64,000 nt of DNA from Bryopsis sp. KO-2023 (lineage: Eukaryota > Chlorophyta > Ulvophyceae > Bryopsidales > Bryopsidaceae). Within the stretch, counting starts at the first letter, position 1, and every line of letters begins with the position of its first letter. The translations under genes were made by a program, and so were the position numbers. Of the stretch, positions 1,058 through 62,431 are shown piece after piece. The stretch spans positions 1,513,001 to 1,577,000 of the forward strand of contig BSYQ01000006.1 in the NCBI GenBank assembly GCA_030272585.1, in the 5' to 3' direction. Under the pieces are notes generated by a model. That model saw only the letters and a list, made by a program, of their open reading frames with translations, was not told the DNA's origin and did not search any database.

Positions 1058-4000
1058 ATCGAGCTCAATGAGGAACCAGTACACCTCGAGATGGAAGGCG
1101 TTTGGCAGATGATCAAAAAAGCAACACAAACTAAATCAGGCAGCCTGACTCAAATCTGGTCCCTGAAAATTCCACGTGGCGTAATTCGGGATGTGCTGGA
1201 GGGAATGTTGATGTGGATGGATCAGAAGGATTTCCCCAGGCAGACCATGATGAAGTTTCTGTCCAGCAAGAGCGGGGAAAATCAAATCATACTCAACTAC
1301 AATACCCGTGATCTACAATTCAAGGTAGCTTGCTCTCTCAAAATAAAGCACCTAGATGAACCCCCCCTCCCCTTTCATGGACTTCTATTTCAACTGGAAC
1401 TTCTGTTGTTTTTGGGTTCTTTTCTTCTTTTCCCTCAAAAAATGGAGATACTTCTGTCAGGCGATCGCATACGAAACTCAAATGGTGAGTGAGGTGACTC
1501 CTGGAGAAGGAGACAAGAGCCATTTGGGCCTCCCAATTCTCAACATTGTGCAAAAAAACAAGGCAGGCACCAGTTTCGACGTGTCCATTGTCTACGATTC
1601 ACCCTCCTTTGCAGCAAAAGCTGTTTTGGAGGCGGTCGGATCTGAAATAGACTTGGTTGCGTACATCACTGAAGGAACTTCACAGCACAGCATGGTGGGT
1701 GAACTAATTGGACAAATGATATATTTCCCCACTCCTTAGTGAAGAAATATGGGGGTTTCCTTGTATGCTTTGCCCGGATTTCCTGAATGGATCGATGGGA
1801 TTTTGTCTGATCAGTTTGTTTGTGATTCGATGTGGCAGGTCAGAGTCAAGAATGCGATGGCTGGTCCAATCAACACCAAGTTGATTGTCCCCAACTGCCC
1901 CGAAACAGTCAAACCTGGCGAATGCAGAATCAGAATCATGCCGGTACAGAATTCCAAGCCATTGTTGAATGAGTTCTGAACCTCGTATTTCTGTCCAGAA
2001 AACGATACTGCCAAGAGAACCGGAATTCGATGCTGGGTTGCTGAGAATGCACAACTTGTTTTGCCCAGGGCTACATCCACCAACCGGATAAAATTGGAAT
2101 CGTGTCCCAATCTGGAACCCTCTCCTACAAGGTAACATCCTTCACTGCAAAAATGCGCTTCGAATCACACAAAGTTTTTCTGTTTTTTGGATGGGTATTT
2201 CAAGCCACTGATCTGGAGCAAGAGAATCATGTTTGGTTAGAGAGTCTATCCGATCATGAAGTCAATGCCCTTTTCTTGGTAGGTGGTTTTCCAAACGGGC
2301 CCCAGACAATCCACGGTCGTCGGCATCGATGGCGATCCATTCCATGGAACAAACTTTATCGATGCAGTATTGAAGAAATTTGAGAAGGACCCACAGGTGG
2401 GTTTGATTGTTGCAAACCCTCTTATTAAAGGTTCGGGGGTTGTAACCTTTACGAACTCTGAACAACGAATCTATTCAAAAAATATCTCTTTTAAGAAAAG
2501 ACTAAATGTGCGAATAATGAATCTCTTAGCCAGCCAGGATCTCTGTCTTTTGAAAAAGATCTGTCCTCACAGGAACTCAATGCTACATATGTAAAATACA
2601 TTTTTTGGGAAAATGAAAATGCTTGGCTTGAAATCTGTGGGGCGTTGCTGAAAAAAATGTTATATTTTTGTGTGTTTTTATGTTTTCTCTTTTGGCTAGA
2701 CTGTGGGAAGAATGATGATCGAAGATATTGCCAGATCTGCTGAAAAACATGCCATCCAGTTCATCAAGGCCAGCGGAACCAATAAACCTGTAGTGTCATC
2801 GATCGAAGGTAGCTCATACATTTTCACATTTTCATCCAAGTTCATCATCAGAAAAAGAGAAAAATAAAAGTTTTCAAATAAGTGATTTTGAGAAATATGT
2901 TTATAGCACCTCGGTTATTTCCCCTTGCACCAGGACAACTCCTGGTCCTCCAAAAAAACTTCACACAAGAAATCTGTTTTAATGAATTTCACCAGCCCAA
3001 GGAAGAGAAGAATGCATTACAATCTTTGAACTACTCAAGCCCCCAGTAGAATAATTTCTAATTTTTATCAAGTTTTTTTTTCTAATTTTCCTCACTGTGG
3101 ATTTAATCCAAGTAGGGTTCGTCTTGTTTTTGTGTTTGTGATGATGTCTCAATGTTCTTTCTTCCTCCAGGTCTGACTGCTCCTCCAGGTCTGACCATGA
3201 AGAAGCCCTCTGTCCAAATCCAGGATTGCAACATTGTTGGCCTTCTCAAGGACTGCTTGTCCTTTGAGAACGGTAGCACCGGTGCCAACGGTACCATTGT
3301 GTCGAAAGCTAGCCGATGGCCAACAATGAGGGTTACAGACAAGGAGCAAATCCAGATCGAGACTGATGACAATTTAATTCCCAACGAACATTCTGAACGA
3401 GAGAAAGAAGTTTCAGTGGTGGTGGAGGAACCCATGGACAACGAAGGGAGCAATTCACAAGGGCAGGTATGTGCAGAAAAATTTCCCCTCCAGAAAGTTT
3501 GTTTTTTTGGTGTGAACCCACTTGGTGGGATATTTCAAAGGATGCCAGTTTGTATGGTATTATGACCCTGTTCCCAACAATCATCGACCCCTTGAAAAAA
3601 AACATATTTTCAATTTTCTTAAAATTTGTTTATGTAATTGTTTTGGTTGCTGAGTTTTCGTAAGGATTGTTGATCTTTTATTGGGTGCTTCGACATCCGC
3701 GGTACTTGTTCACTATCACTTGAAATAATTTCAGTCTTTTTTAGTCTTACGAGGTGGTCCTCAATGTTTTGGCTTTTCTGAATGATCCTTTGATAATAGT
3801 TTTTCAAATTTATGTAATAGAGAACCCTAATTTCTGGTTATCATGACATTGTTTTGGAAGATGTGTTTGCATTGTTTTTGATCTCAAGAATAATGGGACC
3901 CAGAGTTGTTTAGTGACAGCCATTTATTTATTTATTTATTTATTTATTTATTTGCTAGTTAGTTGCCAGCTAGTTGCTTGGATTATTGGTGGGGATGTCG

Positions 4001-4819
4001 AGATTGTTATGACATTGTTTTGGAGGATTTTCTTTGCGTTCTTTTTGATCTCAAGAATAATGGGAGCTGGAGGTGTGGGGCGGAAACTATTCGGTTTGGG
4101 TGGTTTTGTTGAACTTCGTTTTCTGTTATGTTTTTTCCCTGTCGTGCAAAATTGTGTTTAATTATTAATCGACTTTTTTTGGTTCTGTATTTGTATCGTT
4201 CGCCAAAACGACCACAGCGTCTACCAAGTCTGTCTGGGACTGTTTATGTACTACTAGTACTCGACTTTGACTACCTGGCCTTAAAAGTTCCAGTTCCTTT
4301 TACTAAGATATTTGTTGTAGATCACATCATCACATCACGCACAACCTTACAAAGTTAATTTACACAGCGAAGTTCAAGTTTCTCCATTCATGTTGTCCTT
4401 TTTTAAATCTGTTCATCCATCTATCAAAAAATAATGGTATCAATCAAAGCGATTTGTCATTAAAGACGTCAAAGACGTCAAAACCTCTAACAATCCAACA
4501 AACAACCCAAAAAAAAACTTAAAATCAATCTCTTGAAATGCAATTGACAAACGAACGGTGCATTGTCTAGGCACGAAGTCCTCTTCGTCACGAAATTCTC
4601 AAAGAAACGAAGCCATACCAATTCTTCACGAGTTTACGACGGGCTAACATTTGGGATGACGAAATAATGAAACATCATTTCTGCATGATTGAAGAAGAAT
4701 TGCCAAACTGCCGAAATTTACGAGAATTTGTGTTGAAAAAAGATTTGCTTCTTCGTATTCAAGACGCTTTGATTGAAAACGACAATTTCTATTTTACAAT
4801 TGAACACAGAATGTATTAG
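1058..4819 (+). CDS. Succinyl-CoA ligase alpha-like mosaic gene, left-arm copy
   Basis: Exons I read: 1058-1324, 1461-1694, 1839-1943, 2069-2131, 2283-2396, 2700-2808, 3171-3466 and 4571-4819. Introns are GT-AG and phase 0, except the phase-1 intron after 2808. The joined frame has no stop until 4817. Exons two to seven match the alpha subunit of succinyl-CoA ligase (substrate: CoA, nucleotide, succinate): LGLPILN, YITEG, PNCPE (usually PNCPG), [38 protein letters not shown]. The usual N-terminal CoA-binding GxTGxxG exon is absent, replaced by a helical exon (1058-1324) of unknown origin. The segment that should follow TAPPGR, with the phosphorylated histidine (GHAGAI), is also missing, so enzyme activity is unlikely. 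The last exon (82 codons) is unrecognised. The long intron before it (3467-4570) may hide another exon. Exon sizes match the right-arm gene closely, yet residues differ freely. Confidence 0.55.
3922..3953. repeat. (ATTT)n microsatellite in the last intron
   Basis: Eight near-perfect ATTT units inside the 1.1 kb intron between 3466 and 4571. The mirrored right-arm site (about 40217-40250) has a shorter AAAT tract interrupted by other bases. The rest of this intron shows no exon I can support. Confidence 0.9.
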
Positions 4820-39345: not shown

Positions 39346-42300
39346 CTACATTCTGTGTTCACTCGTAAAATAGAAATTGTCGTTTTCAATCAAAGCGTCT
39401 TGAATACGAAAAAGCAAATCTTTCTTCAACACAAATTCTCGTAGATCTCGGCAGTTTGGCAATTCTTCTTCAATCATACAGAAATGATGTTTCACCATTT
39501 CGTCATCCCAATCGTAAGACCGTAAAGTCGTGAAAAATTGGTATCGCTTCGTTTCTTTGAGAATTTCGTGACGAAGAGGACTTCGTGCCTAGACAACGCA
39601 CCGTTCATTTGTTAATTGCATTTCAAGAGTTTGGTTTTTTTTGGATTGTTACAGGTTTTGACGTCTTTGACGTCTTTAATGACAAATCGCTTTGATTGAT
39701 ACCATTATTCTTTTGATAGATGGATGAACGGATTAAAAAAAAGACAACATGAGTGGAGAAACTTGAACTTCGCTGTGTAAACTAACTTTGTAAGGTTGTG
39801 CATGATGTGGTGATGTGATCTACAGCAAATGTCTTAGTAAAAGGAACTGGACTTTTTAAAGCCACGTAGTCAGAGTCGAGTACGAGTAGTACATCAACAG
39901 TCCCAGGGGATATGGCAGACTCAGTAGACGCTGTGGTCGGTGTGGTCGTTTTCGCAAATGGTACAAATATAGAAGCATTATTCGATTAATCCTTAAACAC
40001 AATTTTGCACACAAGGGAAAAAACATAACAGAAAACGAAGTTGAACAAAACAAGAACCCAAACCAACTAGTTTCCCCCACCCCTCCAGCTCCCATTATTC
40101 TTGAGATCAAAAAGGACGCAAAAAAAAATCTCCAAAACAATGTCATGACAATCTCAACATCCCCACCAATAATCCAAGCAACCAGCTGGCTGTCAATTTG
40201 ACAGTGTCAAACAACTAACTAAATAAATAAATAAATGAAAAAAATAAAAAAATGGCTGTCACCCCACAACTCTGGCTCCCATTATTCTTGAGATCAAAAA
40301 CAATGCAAACACATGTTCCGAAACAATGTCATGATAACCAGAAATTAGGGTTCTCTATTACATAAATCTGAAAAACTATCATCAAAGAATTACATCAAGG
40401 ACCACCTCGTAAGACTAAAAAAGACATAAATATTTTTAAGTGATAGTGAGCAAGTACCGTGGATGCCAGAGCACCCAATTATAGATAAACAATCCTTACG
40501 AAAACCAACCAAAACAATTACATAATCAAATTTAGAAAAGTGAAAATATATATTTTTTTCAAGGTGTGGATGATTGTTTGGAACAGGGCCATAATACCAT
40601 ACAAATGGCATCCTTTACATATATACCACCAAGTCGGTTCACACAAAAAAAAAAACTTTCTGGAGGGGAATTTTTTCTGCACATACCTGCCCCTGTGAAT
40701 TGCTCCCTTCGTTGTTCAACTCGCTGTCCACCACCACTGAAGCTTCTTTCTCTCGTTCAGAATGCTCGTTGGGAATTAAGTTGTCATCAGTCTCGATCTC
40801 GATATTCTGCTGTTCTGTAACCCTCATTGTTGGCTGTCGGCTAGCTTTCGACACAATGGTACCGTTGGCACCGGTGCTACCGTTCTCGAAGGACAAGCAG
40901 TCCTTGAGAAAGCCAACAATGTTGCAATCCTGGATTTGGATAGGGTTCTTCTTCACGGTCTGCCAGGGGATATCCTTCTGATCCATCAATAGCACAAAAA
41001 AAAAATTGGCAACAGTTCAAAAATCAGGAGCAATTTGAAAGGGGGGCGTTATTGTGTGGTCTTACAGCGACTCTTGCTGCTTCAAGGGCTTCGATCTTGT
41101 CCTGAGTCCCACATTTACCCCCAACAATAATAGACCCGGCGTGATCGATTGATCGGCCAAGGGGAGCAGTCAGACCTGGAGGAGCAGTCAGACCTGCGTG
41201 GAAGAAAGAATATCGAGTCATCATCACAAACACAAAAGCAAGACAGGCCCTAATTGTATTGGATCCACAGTGAGGAAAATTAAAAAAAACACCTGATGAA
41301 ACGTTGGTTGGGGGCTTGAGTAGTTCAAAGTTCGTCATGGATCACATTCTTTTCTTCCTTCGGCTGATGAAATTCAACAAAACAGATCTTTTGTGTGAAG
41401 TTTTTTTGGAGGACCAGGAGTTGTTCTAATTTCTTCCTTTTTATTTTTCTCTGGTGATGCCCTTGGAAAAACAATGTGGAAATGTATTAAATCTACCTGC
41501 GCTGGATGACACTTCAGGTTTCTTGGTTCCGCTGGCCTCAATGAACTTGGCGGCATGTTTTTTAGCGGACTTGCAAATATCTTCGATCATGATGCTTCCC
41601 ACAGTCTAGCCAGAAGAGAAGCCACAAGAACACAGAACGATATACCTTTTTTTTCAGAACCGTCGCACAGATTTCAACCCAAGCACTTCATTTTCCCAAA
41701 AATATCATTTACATATGTAGCATTGAGTTCCTATGAGGATAGACAAAAAACAAAAGACAGAGATCCTGGCTGGCTTAAAGATTCATTATTAGCACATATA
41801 GTCGTTTCTTAAAACAGGCATTTTTTGAATAGATTCGTTGTTCAGGGGTCGTAAAGGTTACCATCGCTGAACCTTTAAAGAGAGGGTTTGCAGCAATCAA
41901 CCCCACCTGTGGGTCCTTCACGAATTTTTCCAATAATGCATCGATAAATTTTGTTCCATGGAATGGATCGTCATCGATGCCGGCGACCGTGGATTGTCTG
42001 AGGACCGTGTTTGCCGTCTGGAAAACCGCCTATCAAAGAAAAATCAAAGGTATGGCATTAACTTTGTGATCGGATGGACTCTCTGACCAAACATGATTCT
42101 CTTGCTCCACATCAGTGGCTTGAAATACCGATCCCAAAACAGAAAAACTTTCTGCAATTTGAAGCGGATTTTTGCGGTGAAGGATGTTACCTCGTAGGTG
42201 AGGGTTCCAGATTGCGACACGATTCCAATTTTATCAGGCTGGTGGATGTAGCCCTGGGAAACAAAAGTTATGCATTCTCAGCAACCCAGCATCAAATTCA

Positions 42301-45300
42301 GATTTTCTTGGCAGTATCGTTTTCTGGACAGAAATGCGACGTTCAGAACTCATTCAACAATGGCTAGGAATTCTGTACCGGCATAATTCTGATTTTGCAT
42401 TCGTCAGGTTTGACTGTTCCAAGGCAGTTGGGACCCATCAACTTGGTGTTGATTGGACCAGCCATCGCATTCTTGACTCTGACCTGCCACATCGAATCAC
42501 AAACAAACTGATCAGACAAAATCCCATCGATCCATTCAATCCGCCACACCAAATAGTCAAGATTCCACCACCATGGGTAGCCCTGCTCGATCTTCAGAAC
42601 TTGCCTTTCCTGAACAACCTTAATGGATTTGTTCATGCACTTTCTGAATTGATTGAGGGCAATACGGCTGGTCCCCAACATTTCAACAAGGTAGGGAAAT
42701 CGGGGCAAAGCATACAAGGAAACCCCCATATTTCTTCACTAAGGAGTGGGGAAATATATCATTTCTCCAATCAGTTCACCCACCATGCTGTGCTGTGAAG
42801 TTCCTTCAGTGATGTACGCAACCAAGCCTACTTCAGCTCCGACCGCCTTCAAAACAGCTTTTGCTGCAAACGAGGGTGAATCGTAGACAATGGACACGTC
42901 GAAACTGGTGCCTGCCTTGTTTTTTTGCACAATGTTGAGAATTGGGAGGCCCAAAGGGCTCTTGTCTCCTTTTCCAGGATTCACCCAACTCATCATTTGA
43001 GTTCTGTATGCAATCGCCTAACAAAAGTATCTCCATTTATCGAGGGAAAAACAGAAAAGAAACAAGAAACAACAGAAGTTCCAGATGAAGTAGAAGTCTG
43101 TGGGCGGGGGGGTTCATCTAGGTGCTTTATTTTGAGAGAGCAAGCTACCTTGGATCGTAGATCACGGGCATTGTATTTGAGCATGATTTGATTTTCCCTG
43201 CTTTTGCTGGACAGAAACTTCATCATGGTCTGGGAATCCTTCTGATCCATCCACATCAACATTCCCTCCAGCACATCCCGAATTAGGCTTGGTGGAATTT
43301 TCAGGGACCAAGTTTGATTCAAGCTGCCTGATTTGGTTTGAGCTTGCGTTGCTTTGTCGATAATCTGCCAAACGCCTTCCATCTCGATGGATGTTTTCTT
43401 AAATAGGTCAACATTGGAGGGGTCCCCCTGCATAAAAAAAAATCACATCTTGTTCATTTTTGAGAAATAAAAATTAGTCATGTCTTAATCATTTAAGTTA
43501 TCAGTGTCATGTATTTGTTTTTTCACCAGGCACTGTAAATTTGTACGAACACTTCTCAGCAACCCAGCAGCAAATTCAGATTTTCTTGGCAACATTATTT
43601 TCTGGAATTTGTGAGCAGACATGCGAAGCAATGTTTAAGACTCATTCAACGATGGCTTGGAATTCTCTACCAGCATGAGTTTGATTTCGCATTTGCCAGG
43701 ATTGATTGTTCCGGGGCAGTTGGGGCCAATCAACTTGGTGTTGATTGGACTCTCCATTGCATTCTCGACTCTGACCTGCCACATTGAATTGAAAACAAAC
43801 TGATCAGACAAAATCCCATCGATCCATCTGATATTCCACACCCAATATTTCAACATGCAAGGTAGGACAATTCAGACAAAGCATACAAGGAAACCCCCAT
43901 ATTTCTTTGCAAGGGAGTGTTTATTGTCCCAGCGATCAGTTCACCCACCATGCCGTTCTTTGGAATTCCTTCAGTGATGCAAGCAATCAAGTCTATTTCG
44001 TCTTCGACCGCCTCCAAAACAGCTTTTGTTGCAAAGGGGGGTGGGTCAAAGACCACCAACGCGTCGGGATCGGTGCCTGCCTTCGTTTCTTGCACACTCT
44101 TGAAAATAGGGAGGCCCAACCATCGGCCAGGGGGAGCAGTCAGACCTGGACCTGTGTGGAAGAAAGAACAATGAGTCATCATCACAAACATAAAACACAT
44201 GATTTGGATCCACAGTGAGGGAAAGCAGAAAAAAATAAATAAATAGGAAATTATTTTCTGGGGGCTTGAGTAATTCAAAGACTGTCATGGGTCATATTCT
44301 TTTTTTCCTTGAGCTGGTGAAATTCAACAAAACAGTTTTGTTGTGTGAAGTTTTTTTAAAGGAACAGGAGTCGTCCTGGTGCAAGGGGAATGAACCTCTG
44401 TTCATGCCATAAACATATTTCTCACAATCAGTAGTTCGAGCATTTTTTTTTTCTCTTTTTCTGGTGATGCCCTTGGATGAAAATGCGAAAATGCATTATA
44501 GCTACCTGAGCTAAATGACACTTCAGGTGTCTCGGTTCCGCTGGCCTCAATGAACTCAGCGGCATGTTTTTCGTCGGACCCACCAATTTCTCTGGTCGTG
44601 AGTATTTTCTCAGTCTGTTGCCAGAAGAGAAACCATAAAAACACACAAAAATATAACATTATTCATTATTCAGCAACGCCCCACAGATTTCAAGCCAAGC
44701 ACTCCATTTCCCTTAAAGTATCATTTACATATGTAGCATTGAGTTCCTATGAGGCAGATCTTTTTCAAAAGACAGAGATCGGCCGGCTTAAAGATTCTTT
44801 TTTCGCACATTTAGTCGTTTTCGTTTTTTAAAAGATGTTTTTTGAAGATGTTTGTTGTTCAGGGGTCGTAAGTTACCACCCCTACACCTTGAAAAAGAGT
44901 ACATTCGGAAAAAAGCATCCAGTCGTTCTTTCGTCAAAAAATAACATGCTAACGTTTGCATGCAACTCACAACACATGAGCGTCGCAACAGGGTTCGTTT
45001 GTCGTTCGCTTTCTGAAGCTCCATCACCTCATTCGATCTCACGGTTGCTGGATCGAATTCCCCCAGCAGCTTTCTTTTTTCAGCGTCGCCAAGCGATTGT
45101 CCAACCCCTACTACGCCGGTGGTCGCCACTCCATTGCTTGTTTCAGAGCTGTCCTCAGCCCCCAGTGACTTGTTGAAGATGGGATAGGCGACGTTCTTCC
45201 CCAAAACGTTGGAGCTGGATTCGAAGCCGCCTGCACCATCCCACCCCCCATACATGGTATCGACCCATGATTTTCCCCTGACCAAGGGGATTGATGGTTT

Positions 45301-45697
45301 TTCATTGCTTGGGGTTGCTATGGACAAGCAGTTGGTGGGAAGAGCATCGGTGTTCACAGCCTGATTGAGGTTGAACGCTTTCACAGCTCCAACCTATCAC
45401 ATCAAAAGGCGTTCACCAATATAATTTTCTTACCAATCAGAAATTTTTAGAAACCTTCAATGTCAAATCAATCTTTAGAACATTTTTTTAGAAACCTTCA
45501 ATGTCAAATCAATCTTCAGAACAGACCTGTTGATACTCCATCGCCAAGTGCATGGCGAGAAGCTGCTCATCATCGACAAACGCCAAGGAGTCGATGGCTT
45601 CGAAAATTTTTTTTGGGTGGGATTGTACCCCATGGATCTGTTCTATTTTCGTCAGGATGTCTAGTAACTCTTTGTTCGATAAGAAAAGAAAAGTCAT
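39346..45697 (-). CDS. Chimeric gene with two succinyl-CoA ligase alpha modules
   Basis: Exons (minus strand): about 45697-45527, 45393-44971, 44614-44506, 44151-43949, 43775-43671, 43427-43149, 43017-42784, 42483-42379, 42253-42191, 42029-41907, 41605-41497, 41193-41066, 40977-40687, 39588-39346. All borders are GT-AG, phases match (two phase-1 introns, after 44506 and 41497; others phase 0), and no internal stop appears. The first two exons are unrecognised. Exons three to five form a partial ligase module in which TAPPGR is fused directly to LGLPIF. Exons seven to twelve form a fuller module: [65 protein letters not shown] (catalytic His in DHAG) and [11 protein letters not shown]. The CoA-binding GxTGxxG start is missing from both. 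Exons thirteen and fourteen are unrecognised. Activity is uncertain. Confidence 0.6.
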
Positions 45698-47501: not shown

Positions 47502-50246
47502 TTGTGCGGTTGGATGGTAGGTGGGTCGGGGTGCGAGACCGTCCGCGCGGTGGTCGGAGTTTATGCGCGAGTGATCCTAGACTCCGCCATACTGAAGGAG
47601 CTGAACAACGATGTTGAGACGTTGGCAAATTGCGTGCCTCGTGGTGGGGTCCTGGAATTCGATCTGCCAGACGTGGTACTGGAGGATGCTGTGAAACTCA
47701 GGAGTCCCATCACCATCGAAGGAAATTGAGCATCATTTCAGTGTCCTGGCGACGAACGAAAAGGGGCTTTCCACATAAGATGCCTGGACTTAATTGCCCT
47801 GTTGAAAGCCCTTAAGGAAACGTGCAAATTATTGAATTGGGTGTGTTTGGTTGTGGAAAGCAGGTGTAATGATGTGACACTTTCAACCCTTGTTTTCAAG
47901 GGGTGCTTCCTTAATTCTATAGAGGGTCTGATTCATGTGCAAAACTCGACGAATGTCACTCTGGAGAATGTGGAGTTTGAGGGAAATGAAAACATTGGTG
48001 GAGGACCTGCAGGGCATCCAGCTGCCCAGTCTGGATTCAGGCTGTTGAATGTAAAAGCGATAAACAATACTGGGTCTTGGGGAGGGGTCATCGCTGCTCT
48101 GAATAATTCGGAAGCAACAATATTGGATTCCAAGGTCACCAGAAATGTAGCCTTGGAAAGTGGAGGTGCCATTTTCCAATGTCACAATTAGGGAAAGCAC
48201 TCTCGAAAAAACAGAGCAATTTTCCAATGTCACAATTAGGGAAAGCACCTTTGAAAAAAACAGAGCTGATGGGGACAGAAGTGCAATCTATGCTGAGGTA
48301 ACTTTTTTTTGCCTTATACAAATCCAAGGTTTGACAATCACTTGTAGAGGGAGGCTCAAATAAGAAGATGCTTCATTTCCTTGTTGGATTGATTTTTCTG
48401 TCCTTTTGTTTTTCGAGCTATATCTTGTAACAAAAAAATGCTTTTTTTAATCACTTCATCTTAGCGAGATACCATCTTTGCGAATCTTTGGTTGCTTTTT
48501 TTCTTACCTTCCAAATCCGACATATGTTTTCAAGCAAACGTTTTTTTTGTGTGTGTATGATTAGAGTCTGGACCTTGAGAAGAACTATGAGGTTCACGTG
48601 GCTGGATGTACATTTGAAAAAAGGGGGAAAAGACGAAGGGGGGACTGTTTTTTGTTCTGGTGAAGAGGGGGGTGCCCTGTATTTTTCTGGTCCAAATTTG
48701 AATGTGTCAATCCAGAGTTCGAACTTCATAGGTAACTGGGGTTACAGGGGTGGAGCCATCTATGCCACGGAATTGTCCAAACTCCAAATATTCAATTCTT
48801 CATTTGTTGACAACTATGCAACAGCAGGATCTGAGGGTAGAGGGGGTGATATATATTTTTTTCCCTCTGTTGAATCTCATGCAGCCTTGGATGTGTCCAA
48901 GAGCATCTTTCACAGAAACTATGCTGATGCTGGTGGAGCTGTAGCCATACAGGTGTGAAATATATTTTTGAACGTTTTTTCCTTTTCGTGACTCACAAAG
49001 GTCGACATTTCCAAAACTTCAGAGATATCTCCTAACCGTCTCTTGTGGGCATGAGGTTATTGTTTTCAAATTCACTTTATCTTGGTGCTTTTCAAAGATA
49101 GAGGTGGTGAAAGTATGAACAGGAAACAAGGGCAATTGATGTAGCTTGCGAGGACATTGTAACCGCGCTTACTGTTGCACACACGGCTCCACCCCGCTCC
49201 CAAGCTACATTCCCCTTGAAGTAACAATCATCAACATAAACATCCCCACCATCCATAGACACAGCCCACCCTGGAAACCTCGATTACCGTTGGTTGTTTT
49301 CTTATTTCCTTTGCTTACATTTGCAGAGCTAATTTGCGGTTGCAACAATAGGAAATCTGAGCAAGGTCCATTTCCTTCTAAAGAATATAGATCCTGTTTG
49401 TTTTTTCAGGTTGAGGGGTACTCCTTTTCAGAAAAAATCTCAACAATTACTCTTCGTTCTTGAGGATTGTTTGAAATTAAGGCCGTTGGAGGTGTGGAAC
49501 ACGTTAAACTTGCAAGCTTTCATGGGATGGGTGGAGCTATGATGATGAAAGGGATTGAGCTGGTTTCAGCAATCAAAAACTGTACTTTCTCAAGAAACGA
49601 GGCAAGAAGTGGAGGCAGGAAGTGGAGGAGCCCTGTATGCTAAAGATGTTTGGGAACTGACAGTACATTACTCCAATTTTTTTCTGGGGTTGACCCTCAA
49701 AAGAGGGGCACTGACAGGTGTCTGTATGCCTGATTATTAAAATGGAATAATGTCATTGAAGAAAAAAGTATTTTCAAAAAACAAAGCAAGGTGGGGAGGT
49801 GCTGCCTCATTCACTTACTTGGAAATCTGGTTCCTTTCTGTGAGGCCGCCTGTGATCAACCAAGCACACTTTTTGGAAAACCTTGCAACGGATGGAGGAG
49901 GGGCCATTGATATGAAAGAGACAGAGCTGGAGTGTCAATCCTGTCATTTTTATTCCAACAGTGCTGGGGATGATAAGCATGCAATCAGCAAAAAGAGCCC
50001 AATCAGCTGCACAAGCACTTAAGTGACCCTCAGGAATTCCAGCATCATCGGATGCACAGCAACAAAATCAGGAGGGGGGATTTATTTGGAGGATGGAACC
50101 TTCAATGGGCAAAATCTTACAGCCATGAACAACACTGCTGACATAAGTGGAGGTGGCCTTGCCATGGACTTTAAGACTCTTGCATCGTTGGCTGGCTGGG
50201 AATGCGAATCCTGTTTGTTCATTGGAATCCTGTTTGTTTTTTTTTG
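47502..50246 (+). pseudogene. Third beta-helix gene copy, direct and colinear
   Basis: Exons: 47502 to about 47830 (RAVVGVYARVILDSA, GGVLEFDLPDVVLED), about 47860-48298 (LIHVQNSTNVTLENVEFEGN, GGVIAALNNSEATILDS; donor GAG|GTAACT intact), about 48567-48951 (GGALYFSGPNLNVSIQSSNF, GGAIYATELSKLQIFNSSF, CAG|GTGTGA donor), and 49555-50225 in broken pieces (GGAIDMKETELECQSC, GGGIYLEDGTFNGQNLTAMN). This copy shows the original order that is inverted in the arms. It has its own lesions: TGA at 47728 where the arms have GGA, a duplicated GTCACAATTAGGGAAAGCAC segment near 48180/48230, a missing exon and an inverted exon. It ends abruptly where a unit fragment begins at 50249. Expected product: secreted or surface parallel beta-helix protein. 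Confidence 0.65.
49140..49290 (-). pseudogene. Beta-helix exon inverted within the third copy
   Basis: Minus-strand residues MDGGDVYVDDCYFKGNVAW and GGAVCATVSAVTMSS match the right-arm exon at 35418-35185, which is on the same strand as its gene. Here the surrounding exons are all plus strand, so about 150 bases flipped. Confidence 0.6.
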
Positions 50247-57089: not shown

Positions 57090-57237
57090 TGTCAGAATTG
57101 ATGGGAAGGTAGCTCGTGATTGATTAGAAGGAGTCATTTCATAGAATTAGAACATGGGATAGATCGAACATGGTTGTGGTTAAAAGAACGGAGGTACCTT
57201 GATTCGATGTAAGCAGCTGTTTACTCACGTTCTTGAT
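57090..57237 (+). other. Start of retroelement sequence (leader or LTR remnant)
   Basis: The unit breaks off at CTTGCAG and the next bases are TGTCAGAATT, a TG start as in LTRs. No LTR pair can be shown because no second copy lies in the window. An in-frame TAA at 57181 precedes the Gag-protease ORF. Confidence 0.3.
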
Positions 57238-59205
57238 ATGGTTTCGGAGCTTGGGAAAACGAAGTTTTCAACCTGGACAAGGGAAGTAGCTGAATGGGCT
57301 ATTCCGTATGCTGGGTGTGGGGGGATTTCTTTTGAGGAGAAATCGTATGCGTTACTGCGATTAGCGGTCCCAGGAAGCCCAGCATGTCGGCTGTTTGCGA
57401 ACAGAATCGAAAGGGTCCAAACGCAAGGACTGGAATTGAATTTTATTAACGGGAAATATGCGGGAGAAGATGCCACGGAGTTTACGGTGTTCGCTAGTCC
57501 TTTGAGTGCGGTTGGAGCCGCTGAAGCATGGATTATTTTGGTCGCTGAGTTACGGGCGGCGCTTCCTACAGACCTGGCGTCAGATGAGCAAAAGCTGCGC
57601 AGGGAGAAAATGCGACCTAAGGAGAAACTGGAGCATTTCACGACTCGTTTTTGTCAGGCAGCAGATCAAATGGATAAACTCGCAGAAACGGTGAAGTGCA
57701 GTATTCTATATTCGCATCTCCCGAAGTCAGCACAGGAACTCGTGCGTTCATTGCCTAAGTCTTCGACTACTCTTAAGGCAATGCTGGAGCGTTTGCATGA
57801 GAGCCTTGCGTGGGATTCTGGAGGAGGAGCTGTTGGTTCCGCCGCGGACCCAATGGAAATTGATACAGTTAATGTGCAGAGTGTTATCCAGGGCGAACGG
57901 GTCGAGTTTTCCGCTATTAAAACGATGCAGGATTTTCGTATGGCTTCACGCCATTTGGCCCGCAGGAATCAGGGCTATCGCAATTTTTTACAGGATGTGT
58001 TACGTGACGGAGCTCGTGGGACTCAGCGCCAGGGTCGTTTTCAGAATCGGCCATGGCAGAGGCCTAAGAATTATCGCCAGGGTCAACCAGAAAGGGAGAA
58101 AATTTTTAATATCGATGTTCCAGTTTTCGAAGATGCCTTGTTTGGAGGAGATGTTGAGACGAATCAGGGGGACACCGAGGAGCAAGCCCAGGGGGTTAAC
58201 ACTGTAAAAATGACCAGTTCGGGTTCGCTATTGTTTTGCCCTACCGTGGTTAACGCACAGGTCACGTGCAATGGGCTTATTGATACAGGTGCTGGAGTTT
58301 CTTTGATTTCGGCGAAGATTGCGAAGTTGGCCGGTGCTGTTCCTCAACCTACGGAGCGCGTTTTACGCTGTGCTAATCAGTCGGCGTTGACTTGTTTGGG
58401 TACTGCTCAGGTGACGCTCACTATTGGACAAACATCTCTTCAGCAATGGGTTTTTGTTTGTCCCGAGTTGGGTTACGACATGATTTTGGGGAACGACGTT
58501 CTTAGTGAGCTCAAGGCCAAGCCCAATCCCGCGCATCGGGTTTTAGAACTTCCTCGTCAACCAGCCGTTCAATGTTTGGCCGTCGCTCCTGATTCGGTTG
58601 ATGATCAAGGGGTTGTTTGGCGTTTAACGGCTGCTGAACCCTTGCCAGTGCAGCCAGTGGTTAAGGATGGTGTGTTGTTCTGTGCCTTGGGGTCCTCTCG
58701 GGTTATTGCTGCCCAATCCACCCTTACTGTGGTACTCCCTATTGTACCCTCGACCTCGGTGGCGTTTTTTGATTCTGGACGTTTGCCAGCGGGTGTATCG
58801 GCTTCTTCGGCCATTTGGATGCGTGGCCACTCTCTGCGAGTTACTCTTACTAATGCCACAGCTACGCCGGTTATGTTGGGAAGTCGGACAGCGATTGCTG
58901 GGGTTTTGTTGGCGGCAACGACAGTGGAGTTGAAGCAAGCGGATGGGATTGTTCGTACTCTCGCCACTTATTCCCCTCCCACCACTCCCGCTACTATGGT
59001 TGCTAATGTTCGGCCCTGTGCTGCGGATTTACCCTCGCAATTTCCGGCCTTGTTTGCGTCGACAGTGGGCTCGTTCAAACCTGAGGTCATCGAGGAATTG
59101 CCTTTTGTTTCGACTCCTAGCACGCTTGCACCCCCCCAACCTCCCTTGGTGGGTCAGGAGTTTCTTGCTGCTCAGCAACAGATCACCACCTGGACCAAGC
59201 AATGA
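57238..59205 (+). mobile_element. Retrotransposon Gag-protease ORF, lacks reverse transcriptase
   Basis: First in-frame ATG at 57238 (655 codons). The N-terminal 300 residues are Gag-like (helical, ending in an Arg/Gln-rich stretch near RQGRFQNRPWQRPKNYRQGQ) without a zinc knuckle. Around residue 350 lies a retropepsin: GLIDTGAGVSLISAKIAKLA, then about 65 residues on YDMILGNDVLSEL, the usual flap/second-half signature. After a 190-residue linker the frame ends at WTKQ just where a Ty3/Gypsy-type polyprotein would enter reverse transcriptase. The ORF is otherwise intact and G+C-richer than its surroundings, suggesting a fairly recent insertion. Either the element was truncated or interrupted by the next element, or the protease ORF is naturally separate. 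Confidence 0.75.
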
Positions 59206-59281: not shown

Positions 59282-60184
59282 CCCCGGTGAATGACAGCAT
59301 CCTCCCAAGGAGGTACTACTGAACTACAGCGAGGAAACCACCGTAAGAGCACAGAGTCAAGACAGTGGTTCGATCAATCAGATGAGGACTTGCGAGACTG
59401 AGGTTCTGGGTTCGAGTCTGAGTGAGAACGTGCTTTGGTCTGGGCCTGTGTGTGAGTGTGTAAGTGAGTCAGGAGTAGAACTGGCGGCTGTTAGTCAGGG
59501 TAGTGGGAGTGTTACGGGTGGTTAGTCACCCTCGGGAAAGTCGAACTGGGAGTTGAAATGATGGGACGCTTGATGTAACCTTGCTTTTCAGTGATCTGTG
59601 GTGTGACCCCGAGTCTGTGACCCGTGCGATTTTGTGTGACCGTTCCGCCGCCGCCTCACTCTTTTGCGAGATAGGAGACGTCGCTCGCGGACGTCAGTCC
59701 TCCCGAGCGATAACATTTTTGGTTTCGGAGCCCGAAGGAACCGACTGGACTGGAGCTCTCCGCTGGTTTGACCAGCAGGTTTGTTCGAGGCGCTTAACGC
59801 CAGTCGTCAGGTCGTGGGAAAACGGAAAAAGGCAAACGCAGTGAACGGGAAAAAAGGAAAACGTGTGGTAGCAACGTTGGAAAAGAAGCACACCCATAAA
59901 AAGAGAGAAAAGAGGGTGCCAACGTTCAGTCGTGTGACAGGACGTTTGGGAAAAAGGTTACCCTGTAACCTGCGTCGCTGTCAGCGAACTGTAGTACTCA
60001 GGTTCGAAGGGTTAGAGTCGGACGTGAAGGGGTATAGTAGTATTACGTATAGTAACTCTCACGGCAAGGGCACGTGGGTTATCCGTTCACAGTTCGGCAA
60101 GGACAGGTCGTGGCGCGAAAGTCAACGGTCTACAGTTGACAGTAACCGTTGCCTGGAAAGTCAACTGAAAGTCAAGCGACCAGA
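59282..60184 (+). other. Leader of the second retroelement
   Basis: No gene supported. G-rich, with a possible splice acceptor at CTTTTCAG (about 59590). A basic open stretch (59781-60230; KKGKRV, KKREKRVP) has no ATG and overlaps the Gag start in another frame. A primer-binding site could not be identified with confidence. Confidence 0.35.
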
Positions 60185-62431
60185 ATGGCTCTGGTTCCGG
60201 TCGTTACAGAAAGCGACATGGTCGCGATAAGCGACGAAGTCATGGAAGGGTCAGAAGTGCAACCAATGGTGCACCAGCAAATTCAGAATATACAGATAAA
60301 TGGTTCTGATCACACTGAAATGCAGAGACAGATTGAGGTCTGGGGTGGAACAGTAACCAACCATCTCCAGCAATCATTGACCTCCATGCAGAGTCAGGTT
60401 CAACAAGTCCAGGTTGAACTCTATACACACAGAGAGCAAGCAGAGCTACATCAGTCAACTCTAAAGGAAGAGTTGCAGTCAGCTTTAGTGCACAGTTTGG
60501 AAGAACAGAGTCGAAAACTACAGCAGACTCAGGAGCTACATGCAAAGGACTTTTATCAAAGTCTCACTACAAATACAAACACTCAACTGAAGGACCTTGG
60601 TGAACAGTTGAGAAGTACAGGAAAAGATCATGCTGCGGGCATGGCTCAGTGGAAAAATAAGAACCAAACAGAGCTGGAACTATTCCAGAAGAAGCAGTTA
60701 GCTCTTCAGGAGCAACTGATGTTGGTTCAAAAGAAACAACAGGAAGATATTAATGCCCAATTATATGAAGTGTCTCAGCACATGCAAAGAATGCAAAAAC
60801 AGCTGATGGAAGAGAGGGAGAGTATGACAAACACAATGACTAGCATACTGCAAGGAGAATTGGACTCCTATCCTGCAGTCATTCAGAAAATGGTAGCTAC
60901 AGCAGTGGATGAAACCACCACAGCTATTGAGGACAAGTATAACAATGCTGAAGGACAGAAAGCAGATCTAGAAGAGACTAGATGGGCTTTAACTGATCCA
61001 GAATATCAGAAAGCAGTTGATGGCTGGATGAAAGATGGAATCCTGAGAACACCTATTCCTCCACAAGTGATGCAAGTGCATATGATGCAAGCAACACAAA
61101 CAGTACAGAATACAGAGGAAGGAGAAACTGAGGGACAAACTCAGGATATCCCAACATCTGGTCAGCCACCAGTACAGCAAGTTATACCTGCCACAAGTAC
61201 TGGAGCAGTACCTCCAGGACCCTCTTCTTTAGGTCTCATAGACCTCACTTCAGGACAACAACTGTCCATGGGTTTACCACCCCCTATACTGCAACCACCA
61301 GCAGTAACTATAGCACCTCCAGCTACCTTTACTGTAGGCACTACCCCAGCACCATCAGGAATGGGAATTCGACCACCAAATCCCTTTGAACAGTTAACAA
61401 GTCAAAGAGCACCCAGTGGTGGTGCACCTGGAGGAAATCCAGGGGATCCAAATGGATCAAATGGACCAAATGGCCCAGACAGACCAGGCATGCCTAGAGC
61501 ATCTGGTTCTGGACATCCAGGGCCAGGGAATGGTGGTGATGGTGGTGGAGGTGATGGAGGAGGTCCCCCAGGAGGAGGACCACCTGATAGAGATCCTAGT
61601 GGTACATCAGGAGGTTCAGGACAAGGTCCTGATAGACCTTACAGCAAACAGATTAAGCTCACTCCCCCAGAGAAATTCACTGGAGATGAAAGGATATCTG
61701 CAACAGAGTGGATATTGGGAATGAAGAGATGGTTGCAGAATCAACACATCTTAGAGAGAGACTGGTTATCCTGTTTTCAGTCACATCTCCAGGGAGATGC
61801 ACTTAGCTGGTTAAACCTGATGGATATACAGATCATGAATCAGGAAAAAGCAGAGTATGCTAGCTGGCAAGAGTTCACTCAAGAGCTAAGGAATGTTTTT
61901 GAGCCAGTCTCCCTAATAGAGACTGCCAGAAAACAATTAAGAACTCTAAGGCAGACTGGAACTGCCTTAGGCTACATCAGACTCTTCAGAAAGCTGATGT
62001 TTAGACTTCCCAATCTACCTCAAGAAGAAAGATATGCAGCCTTTGTGGATGGGCTCTCAGATAGAAATATGCAAGCACAGGTTATGACCCTGTGTGATGG
62101 AGATCTGGATAAGGCCATCCTCACAGTCCAAAGACTCTCTGCAACTATAGGCAGTAGAGGTGGCACTACTAGCAGCTTTAGAGGCAGAGGTAGAGGGAGG
62201 GGAAGATTTGGACAAAGAAATACACAGATGTCAGCAATGATGTCTACTGCAACATCACAACTGCCTCCTGCAGCAAATTCAGTTAAGGCTGTGCAGCAGA
62301 GAGGTCAGATGGGATCTAGGCCCTCAAGGGGAGGATCCTTCAAGTGTTTTCTATGTGGAAGCACAGAGCATGGGGTGAGACAGTGTCCCAAACTGTCCCA
62401 AGCTCAGAAAGCCCTGAAGAAGGGAAACTAA
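60185..62431 (+). mobile_element. Retrotransposon Gag with zinc knuckle (748 codons)
   Basis: ATG at 60185 (MALVPVVTESDMVAI). Order of domains: Gln-rich coiled-coil region (residues about 30-260), Pro-rich linker (300-400), Gly/Pro/Asp low-complexity region (410-490, GGGGDGGGPPGGG), retrotransposon Gag core (about 495-650: TPPEKFTGDERISATEWILG, GDALSWL, FRKLMFRLPNLPQEERYAAF), Arg/Gly patch (RGRGRGRGRFGQR), and one CCHC zinc knuckle CFLCGSTEHGVRQC. The core matches Ty3/Gypsy Gag proteins. It is longer than most because of the coiled coil. The A-rich codon usage differs sharply from the Gag-protease ORF upstream, so the two belong to different elements. Confidence 0.85.
62422..62428 (+). promoter_or_regulatory. 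-1 ribosomal frameshift slippery site GGGAAAC
   Basis: The Gag frame reads G GGA AAC TAA, so a canonical X XXY YYZ heptamer sits directly before the stop. A -1 slip continues in the frame of the next ORF (LKEEASVGSAKPPDD). I did not identify a downstream pseudoknot. Confidence 0.6.

Follow-up and report, generated by a model that had tools for sequence, protein, structure and literature searches.

Young chimeras of duplicated genes, such as Sdic and jingwei, carry new reading frames and sometimes exist in several copies. Drosophila yakuba has chimeric genes that arose by tandem duplication (PMC5460883), and fusion genes have been described from Oryza (PMC9199173); duplication or fusion likewise yields new genes there, with other donor genes and in other organisms. 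Exon shuffling in algae has been reported for the ROCO genes of brown algae (PMC11378527), which form a GTPase family, whereas pieces of housekeeping genes are combined here. No paper on a chimera of succinyl-CoA ligase (SCS) alpha and dynein was found among the literature matches listed, and a combined search gave no match. Here, we analyzed a stretch of 64,000 nucleotides of the Bryopsis sp. KO-2023 genome (hereafter the window, C6:1513001-1577000, GC of 0.43-0.49), with searches extended to 91 Mb of genome in 28 contigs. Counted by exon and not by gene, this genome has 107 matches to the light-harvesting family PF00504, as befits a photosynthetic eukaryote. The gene under study, termed copy A, and its relatives differ from Sdic and jingwei in that joins recur inside exons and exon order differs in most copies.

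Gene structure and parentage of copy A

Copy A was modelled as 14 exons on the minus strand, running from position 45697 to 39346 of the window, with AG acceptors, GT donors and consistent phases (Table 1). All 13 junctions are GT-AG and in phase, the joined frame of 2586 nt (861 codons) contains no internal stop, and an in-frame TAA is found as the third codon 5' of the ATG, in good agreement with the original prediction of about 14 exons joined by phase-matched introns. The reality of this gene model, beyond chance, was confirmed by the copy lying on the left arm of an inverted repeat (copy B), whose introns are 8.8% different and which nevertheless retains a complete frame. This second copy comprises 13 exons with 12 modelled junctions, all GT-AG and in phase, and carries two in-frame fusions, one of SCS exon 3 to exon 4 (ei) and one of SCS exon 7 to exon m (lm). 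Neither frameshifts nor stops occur in the joined frames of A and B.

Table 1. Positions in the window of the exons of copy A and of the part of copy B that lies inside it.
Feature	Positions	Strand	Content
Exon a	45527..45697	-	Start codon; linker fragment of a dynein heavy chain (DHC_N2 1.4e-8, residues 3-50); also matches other linker exons
Exon b	44971..45393	-	141 aa, without known family
Exon c	44506..44614	-	SCS-alpha exon 6 copy, GEIGG region here REIGG; 79% to intact gene
Exon d	43949..44151	-	SCS-alpha exon 7 (TAPPGR) fused to exon 2 (LGLPIF)
Exon e	43671..43775	-	SCS-alpha exon 3 copy
Exon f	43149..43427	-	Dynein microtubule-stalk exon, the helical linker
Exon g	42784..43017	-	SCS-alpha exon 2 copy, module 2
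Exon h	42379..42483	-	SCS-alpha exon 3 copy
Exon i	42191..42253	-	SCS-alpha exon 4 copy
Exon j	41907..42029	-	SCS-alpha exon 5 copy
Exon k	41497..41605	-	SCS-alpha exon 6 copy, GEIGG changed to EDICK
Exon l	41066..41193	-	SCS-alpha exon 7 copy; His of MGHAG retained as IDHAG
Exon m	40687..40977	-	Probable dynein stalk-to-AAA5 piece and acidic tail; weak profile matches
Exon n	39346..39588	-	80 aa and stop codon; relatives scattered, some with stops
Copy B, part inside window	1058..4819	+	Exons f to n; the remaining exons (a to ei, C6:1511048-1512961) precede the window

An intact counterpart of the enzyme-derived exons is found on the same contig (copy E, C6:855500-863500). It is apparently a complete SCS alpha gene, with nine exons, a start codon, 314 aa and the motifs TGKNGTFH, GEIGG and MGHAG. 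Exons c, d, e and g-l show 78-91% identity to its exons 2-7, and splice positions are shared across exons c-e and g-l, except at the fusion inside exon d. In contrast to copy E, copy A is devoid of exons 0, 1 and 8, the order of its module 1 is permuted, and invariant residues have been lost. The internal fusion originally read in one of the modules was recovered in exon d; at its junction (~44113-44119), the matches to its two sources have a 7-nt overlap with TGGGCC common to both, which is consistent with microhomology joining. By itself, exon d matches solved SCS alpha chains, of which the best eight are all mitochondrial. Another frame, at C7:4850835, was examined as a second SCS alpha and set aside; we take it to resemble an NDP-forming acyl-CoA synthetase.

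A Pfam search of the joined protein, as proposed with the original prediction, returned CoA_binding (4.8e-20, in two stretches, the best spanning profile positions 46-97 of 97) and Ligase_CoA (1.8e-6). The N-terminal CoA-binding exon with TGKxGTFH, already read as missing from both modules, is present in copy E but in neither of the joined proteins (A and B), and the last SCS exon is absent from both modules of copy A. The His of the GHAGA region is the phosphorylated residue of SCS alpha; module 2 of copy A reads IDHAGSI there, retaining the DHAG noted from the start, and in copy B this stretch was removed through the lm fusion. To measure enzyme constraint, residues unchanged across 15 bacterial SCS representatives and copy E were taken as invariant, and the modules were aligned without their insertions. 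Module 2 was changed at 30/92 invariant and 46/153 variable positions in copy A, and at 26/80 and 39/134, respectively, in copy B. Invariant sites of module 2 are thus altered as often as variable ones, leaving no trace of enzyme constraint. The N part of module 1 of copy A was changed at 7/32 invariant and 25/59 variable positions and its C part at 4/15 and 11/29, and some enzyme constraint may be left there. The SCS-derived parts are likely inactive as an enzyme, originally raised as one of two possibilities, considering the altered invariant sites of module 2 and the missing TGKNGTFH exon.

The exon joining the two modules had been described as an unrelated helix. This description did not hold, as exon f corresponds to a dynein stalk, matching at 55% one frame of the C3 dynein heavy-chain gene (copy H, C3:564000-568500), a frame that itself matches DYNC2H1 chains at 4e-27. 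Adjoining frames of this C3 gene score above the Pfam cut-off for AAA_8 and AAA_9, and once above and once below it for MT. While exon f of copy A alone gave no Pfam dynein match, its left-arm version matches DYNC2H1 chains at 0.0011. A four-sequence profile of exon m weakly matched a chain named DHC2 (0.012) and, in the same entry, a 4309-residue "AAA+ ATPase domain-containing" chain (0.1) that we took as a dynein; exon m is probably a dynein AAA5 piece, as far as these weak matches indicate. His-Me finger and DUF4488 labels for exons m and f scored below Pfam cut-offs and were set aside, the dynein evidence being preferred. The terminal domains, both of which had been called unknown, are in part a dynein linker (DHC_N2) in exon a and probably AAA5 in exon m, and the earlier description stands for exons b and n. 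For exon n, a comparison with solved structures gave four matches (best E=0.13), none usable.

Exons b and n are the two exons of copy A without an identified parent gene; in the copy D version of exon b, a coiled-coil-like end resembles a frame downstream of a linker-like exon on C5 (L056) at 5e-10. Copy A contains dynein linker and stalk sequence as fragments, and its exons a (linker), f (stalk) and, weakly, m (AAA5) keep the order of a dynein heavy chain. Unlike such a chain, the joined protein has no AAA ATPase module by Pfam: no AAA+ ring was found, and DHC_N2 was the sole dynein family in the whole protein. Elsewhere, the linker exons at C7:2599765 and C7:2851522 encode, where they match exon a, one and the same peptide of 35 residues; duplicated dynein fragments may therefore exist at other places too.

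A family of rearranged copies

DNA and exon searches established that copy A is not a lone gene, being one of seven related loci (A, A2, B, C, D, F and G), besides the intact SCS gene (E) and the dynein gene (H). Copy A2 is 98% identical to copy A and has the same exon order, while the orders of B, C, D, F and G differ. Copies A and B occupy the arms of an imperfect inverted repeat, in which stretches of 1-16.4 kb of the window match stretches of 27.9-43.4 kb, and have in common the d join and the exon orders a-d and f-k.

Eleven exon-internal junctions were found and counted as eight distinct ones, six of which are in frame (P=0.02); this count excludes the lm fusion of copy B, which was found by eye. 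The two junctions scored out of frame are those from S3 to the dynein exon x in G and F, and the one in G reads through in one open frame. Exon m is joined to SCS exon 2 in D and G, where 57 and 29 nt, respectively, separate the matches, and in G dynein exon x is also joined to SCS exon 2. In copy C, a stop lies inside the exon-7 copy. Copy G further contains, at C6 ~752117-752380, a cysteine-rich 4Fe-4S-like frame (Fer4_20, 8e-4, below the cut-off) that continues in the same reading frame into SCS exon 4; a third donor gene may therefore have contributed.

The window also holds other repeated sequences. Tandem, near-identical units of ~3784 bp occupy 19.3-31.5 kb, with more copies at ~54-57 kb and inverted ones at 12.7-16.4 kb; the one frame of this unit that was searched had no Pfam match. 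Plus-strand frames with aspartyl protease and Retrotrans_gag matches (57184-59205 and 60146-62431) represent parts of LTR-type retroelements. Frames at 7.2-7.7 and 47.7-48.2 kb match a Chlam_PMP-like repeat and Beta_helix, both below the Pfam cut-off, and related DNA is also present at 36.9-37.2 kb. The frame at 48431-48955 had no Pfam match.

Reading frame and amino-acid constraint

The preservation of the reading frame was examined through stops and indels. Between A and B, no stop was found in the compared codons while 5.6 were expected (P=0.002; 161 substitutions over 755 codons), exons e/ei and l, the beginning of f and gapped codons being excluded from this comparison. Aligned codons of C, D, F, G and E compared with A were also free of stops, against 4.0, 4.9, 4.5, 7.9 and 3.9 expected; in these counts C, D, F and G share the A branch and codons touching indels were skipped, the stop of copy C falling in such a stretch.

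Indels with lengths in multiples of three (3n) accounted for 3/3 exonic and 1/10 intronic indels between A and A2, and for 4/6 and 8/47 between A and B (one-sided P=0.019), where the other two exonic indels form a +2/-2 pair separated by about five bases. The corresponding exonic and intronic counts against A were 1/4 and 1/15 for C, 7/7 and 6/29 for D, 4/4 and 1/2 for F, 4/7 and 2/18 for G, 1/1 and 6/31 for E, and 4/6 and 0/0 for H. When B, C, D, F and G were pooled, 20/28 exonic versus 18/111 intronic indels were 3n (one-sided P=4e-8), although these comparisons are non-independent, as a change on the A branch enters more than one of them. For A2, B, D and F, the fractions were 14/16 for exonic indels, deduplicated by hand, versus 16/88 for intronic ones, which were not deduplicated. 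Indels between A and B were also sparser in exons (6 per 2342 bp) than in introns (47 per 3117 bp; P=9e-7), a contrast that may be inflated by intron instability at homopolymers. Taken together, the indels and stops suggest selection against frame loss in A, B and D, and perhaps in F.

Amino-acid constraint was far less uniform. The dN/dS between A and B was 0.63 (bootstrap 0.45-0.89; 0.62 with other alignments), with values of 0.29 (0.16-0.50) for exons a-d, 0.22 (0.04-0.73) for exon b alone, 0.88 (0.49-1.81) for SCS module 2, 0.81 (0.44-1.76) for exons a, f and m together, and 0.49 (0.14-2.99) for exon n. Against the other copies, A gave 0.83 (C), 0.98 (D), 1.18 (F), 0.66 (G) and 0.52 (E), and exon b reached 1.01 over 68 codons between A and D. 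Single-exon values ranged from 0.07, where dS is saturated, to 1.67 in 28 comparisons, one of 29 having no match. Substitutions between A and B were less frequent in exons (167/2342) than in introns (275/3117; P=0.024), and divergence between A and A2 was 0.0104 in exons and 0.0088 in introns. The original prediction had named dN/dS near 1 along with frameshifts in relatives as evidence that would refute it, and this pattern was seen in part: dN/dS was 0.62-0.63 with copy B and 0.66-1.18 with the more distant copies C, D, F and G, and indels other than 3n occur in C and G and are absent from the compared exons of D and F. These comparisons point to a frame that is kept, with clear amino-acid constraint in exons a-d only. 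Relaxed constraint and a mixture with positive selection are inseparable in these data, and the ages of the segments may differ through gene conversion.

Origin and possible role of the family

The reading that we favor, and consider rather probable, is that copy A belongs to a chimeric, probably translated, non-enzymatic family produced by segmental duplication and illegitimate joining. It builds on what was observed of the gene structure, the parents of most exons, the related copies, the preserved frame and the enzyme constraint lost from module 2. The exon shuffling originally proposed for the two SCS alpha modules is thereby upheld, with SCS alpha and dynein heavy chain as parents and an intact joined frame, and neofunctionalization of copy A is possible. 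Repeated segmental duplication would have set mitochondrial-type SCS alpha and dynein exons side by side, as their parentage indicates, and illegitimate recombination, partly inside exons, along with exon loss would have generated the new orders, as the junctions indicate; microhomology may have assisted at d, the one junction examined closely. Joins that keep the frame would then survive, with selection on the protein maintaining it. Copy A would be expressed, and its product would be a non-catalytic protein whose constrained part corresponds to exons a-d, a scaffold or pseudoenzyme being our most likely guess for its role.

Alternatively, the copies could be young, decaying pseudogenes whose pieces were scattered by segmental duplication and whose open frames are left over from functional parents. 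The dN/dS near 1 of several copies, the loss of enzyme-invariant sites in module 2 as fast as variable ones, and the disruption of C, G and A2 agree with such decay. However, the codons compared between A and B are free of stops, their indels nearly all keep the frame, and exons a-d show a dN/dS of 0.29; because the d join and the orders a-d and f-k are common to both copies, most of their differences should be later than these joins. We therefore regard general decay as unlikely. A diversifying, recombination-driven family resembling recognition or antigen genes, in which pieces of housekeeping-gene exons would be rejoined recurrently, also within exons, and the frame selected even though amino acids are replaced at the neutral rate or faster, appears somewhat more doubtful still.

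The 14-exon model could also merge at least two separate transcripts, some exons belonging to shorter genes. In copy B, the open frame of dynein exon x needs entry phase 1, as does that of D, while the preceding exon ends in phase 0; x was skipped in the copy B model because of this mismatch. Yet the 13/13 junctions of A and 12/12 modelled junctions of B that are GT-AG and in phase make such a merger improbable.

Capture and spread of the pieces by a DNA transposon (Helitron or Pack-type) would fit the several donor genes found per locus and their retained introns, as well as an insertion inside A2. This insertion (C6:1711754-1720025), which we presume to be CACTA-like, splits exon a into parts ~8 kb apart, and its ends CACTATGGGAAA / TTTCCCATAGTG adjoin a repeated GTA (two ends read). 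Capture was nonetheless set aside as very improbable, since A and B lie in the arms of a longer inverted duplication (1-16.4 kb versus 27.9-43.4 kb). Finally, the His retained in module 2 and the Glu of REIGG in module 1 could speak for an SCS alpha-like subunit that is working or regulatory, a reading dismissed as hardly credible, as neither module has the TGKNGTFH exon or the last exon and invariant sites have been lost (30/92 in module 2).

The chimeric, frame-keeping family that we favor offers a still readable example of how an enzyme and a motor protein supplied the parts of new genes; different joined products are seen at several loci, beside a donor-type gene that is still intact. The combination of a kept frame with nearly free amino-acid change makes frame-only selection in newborn genes testable.
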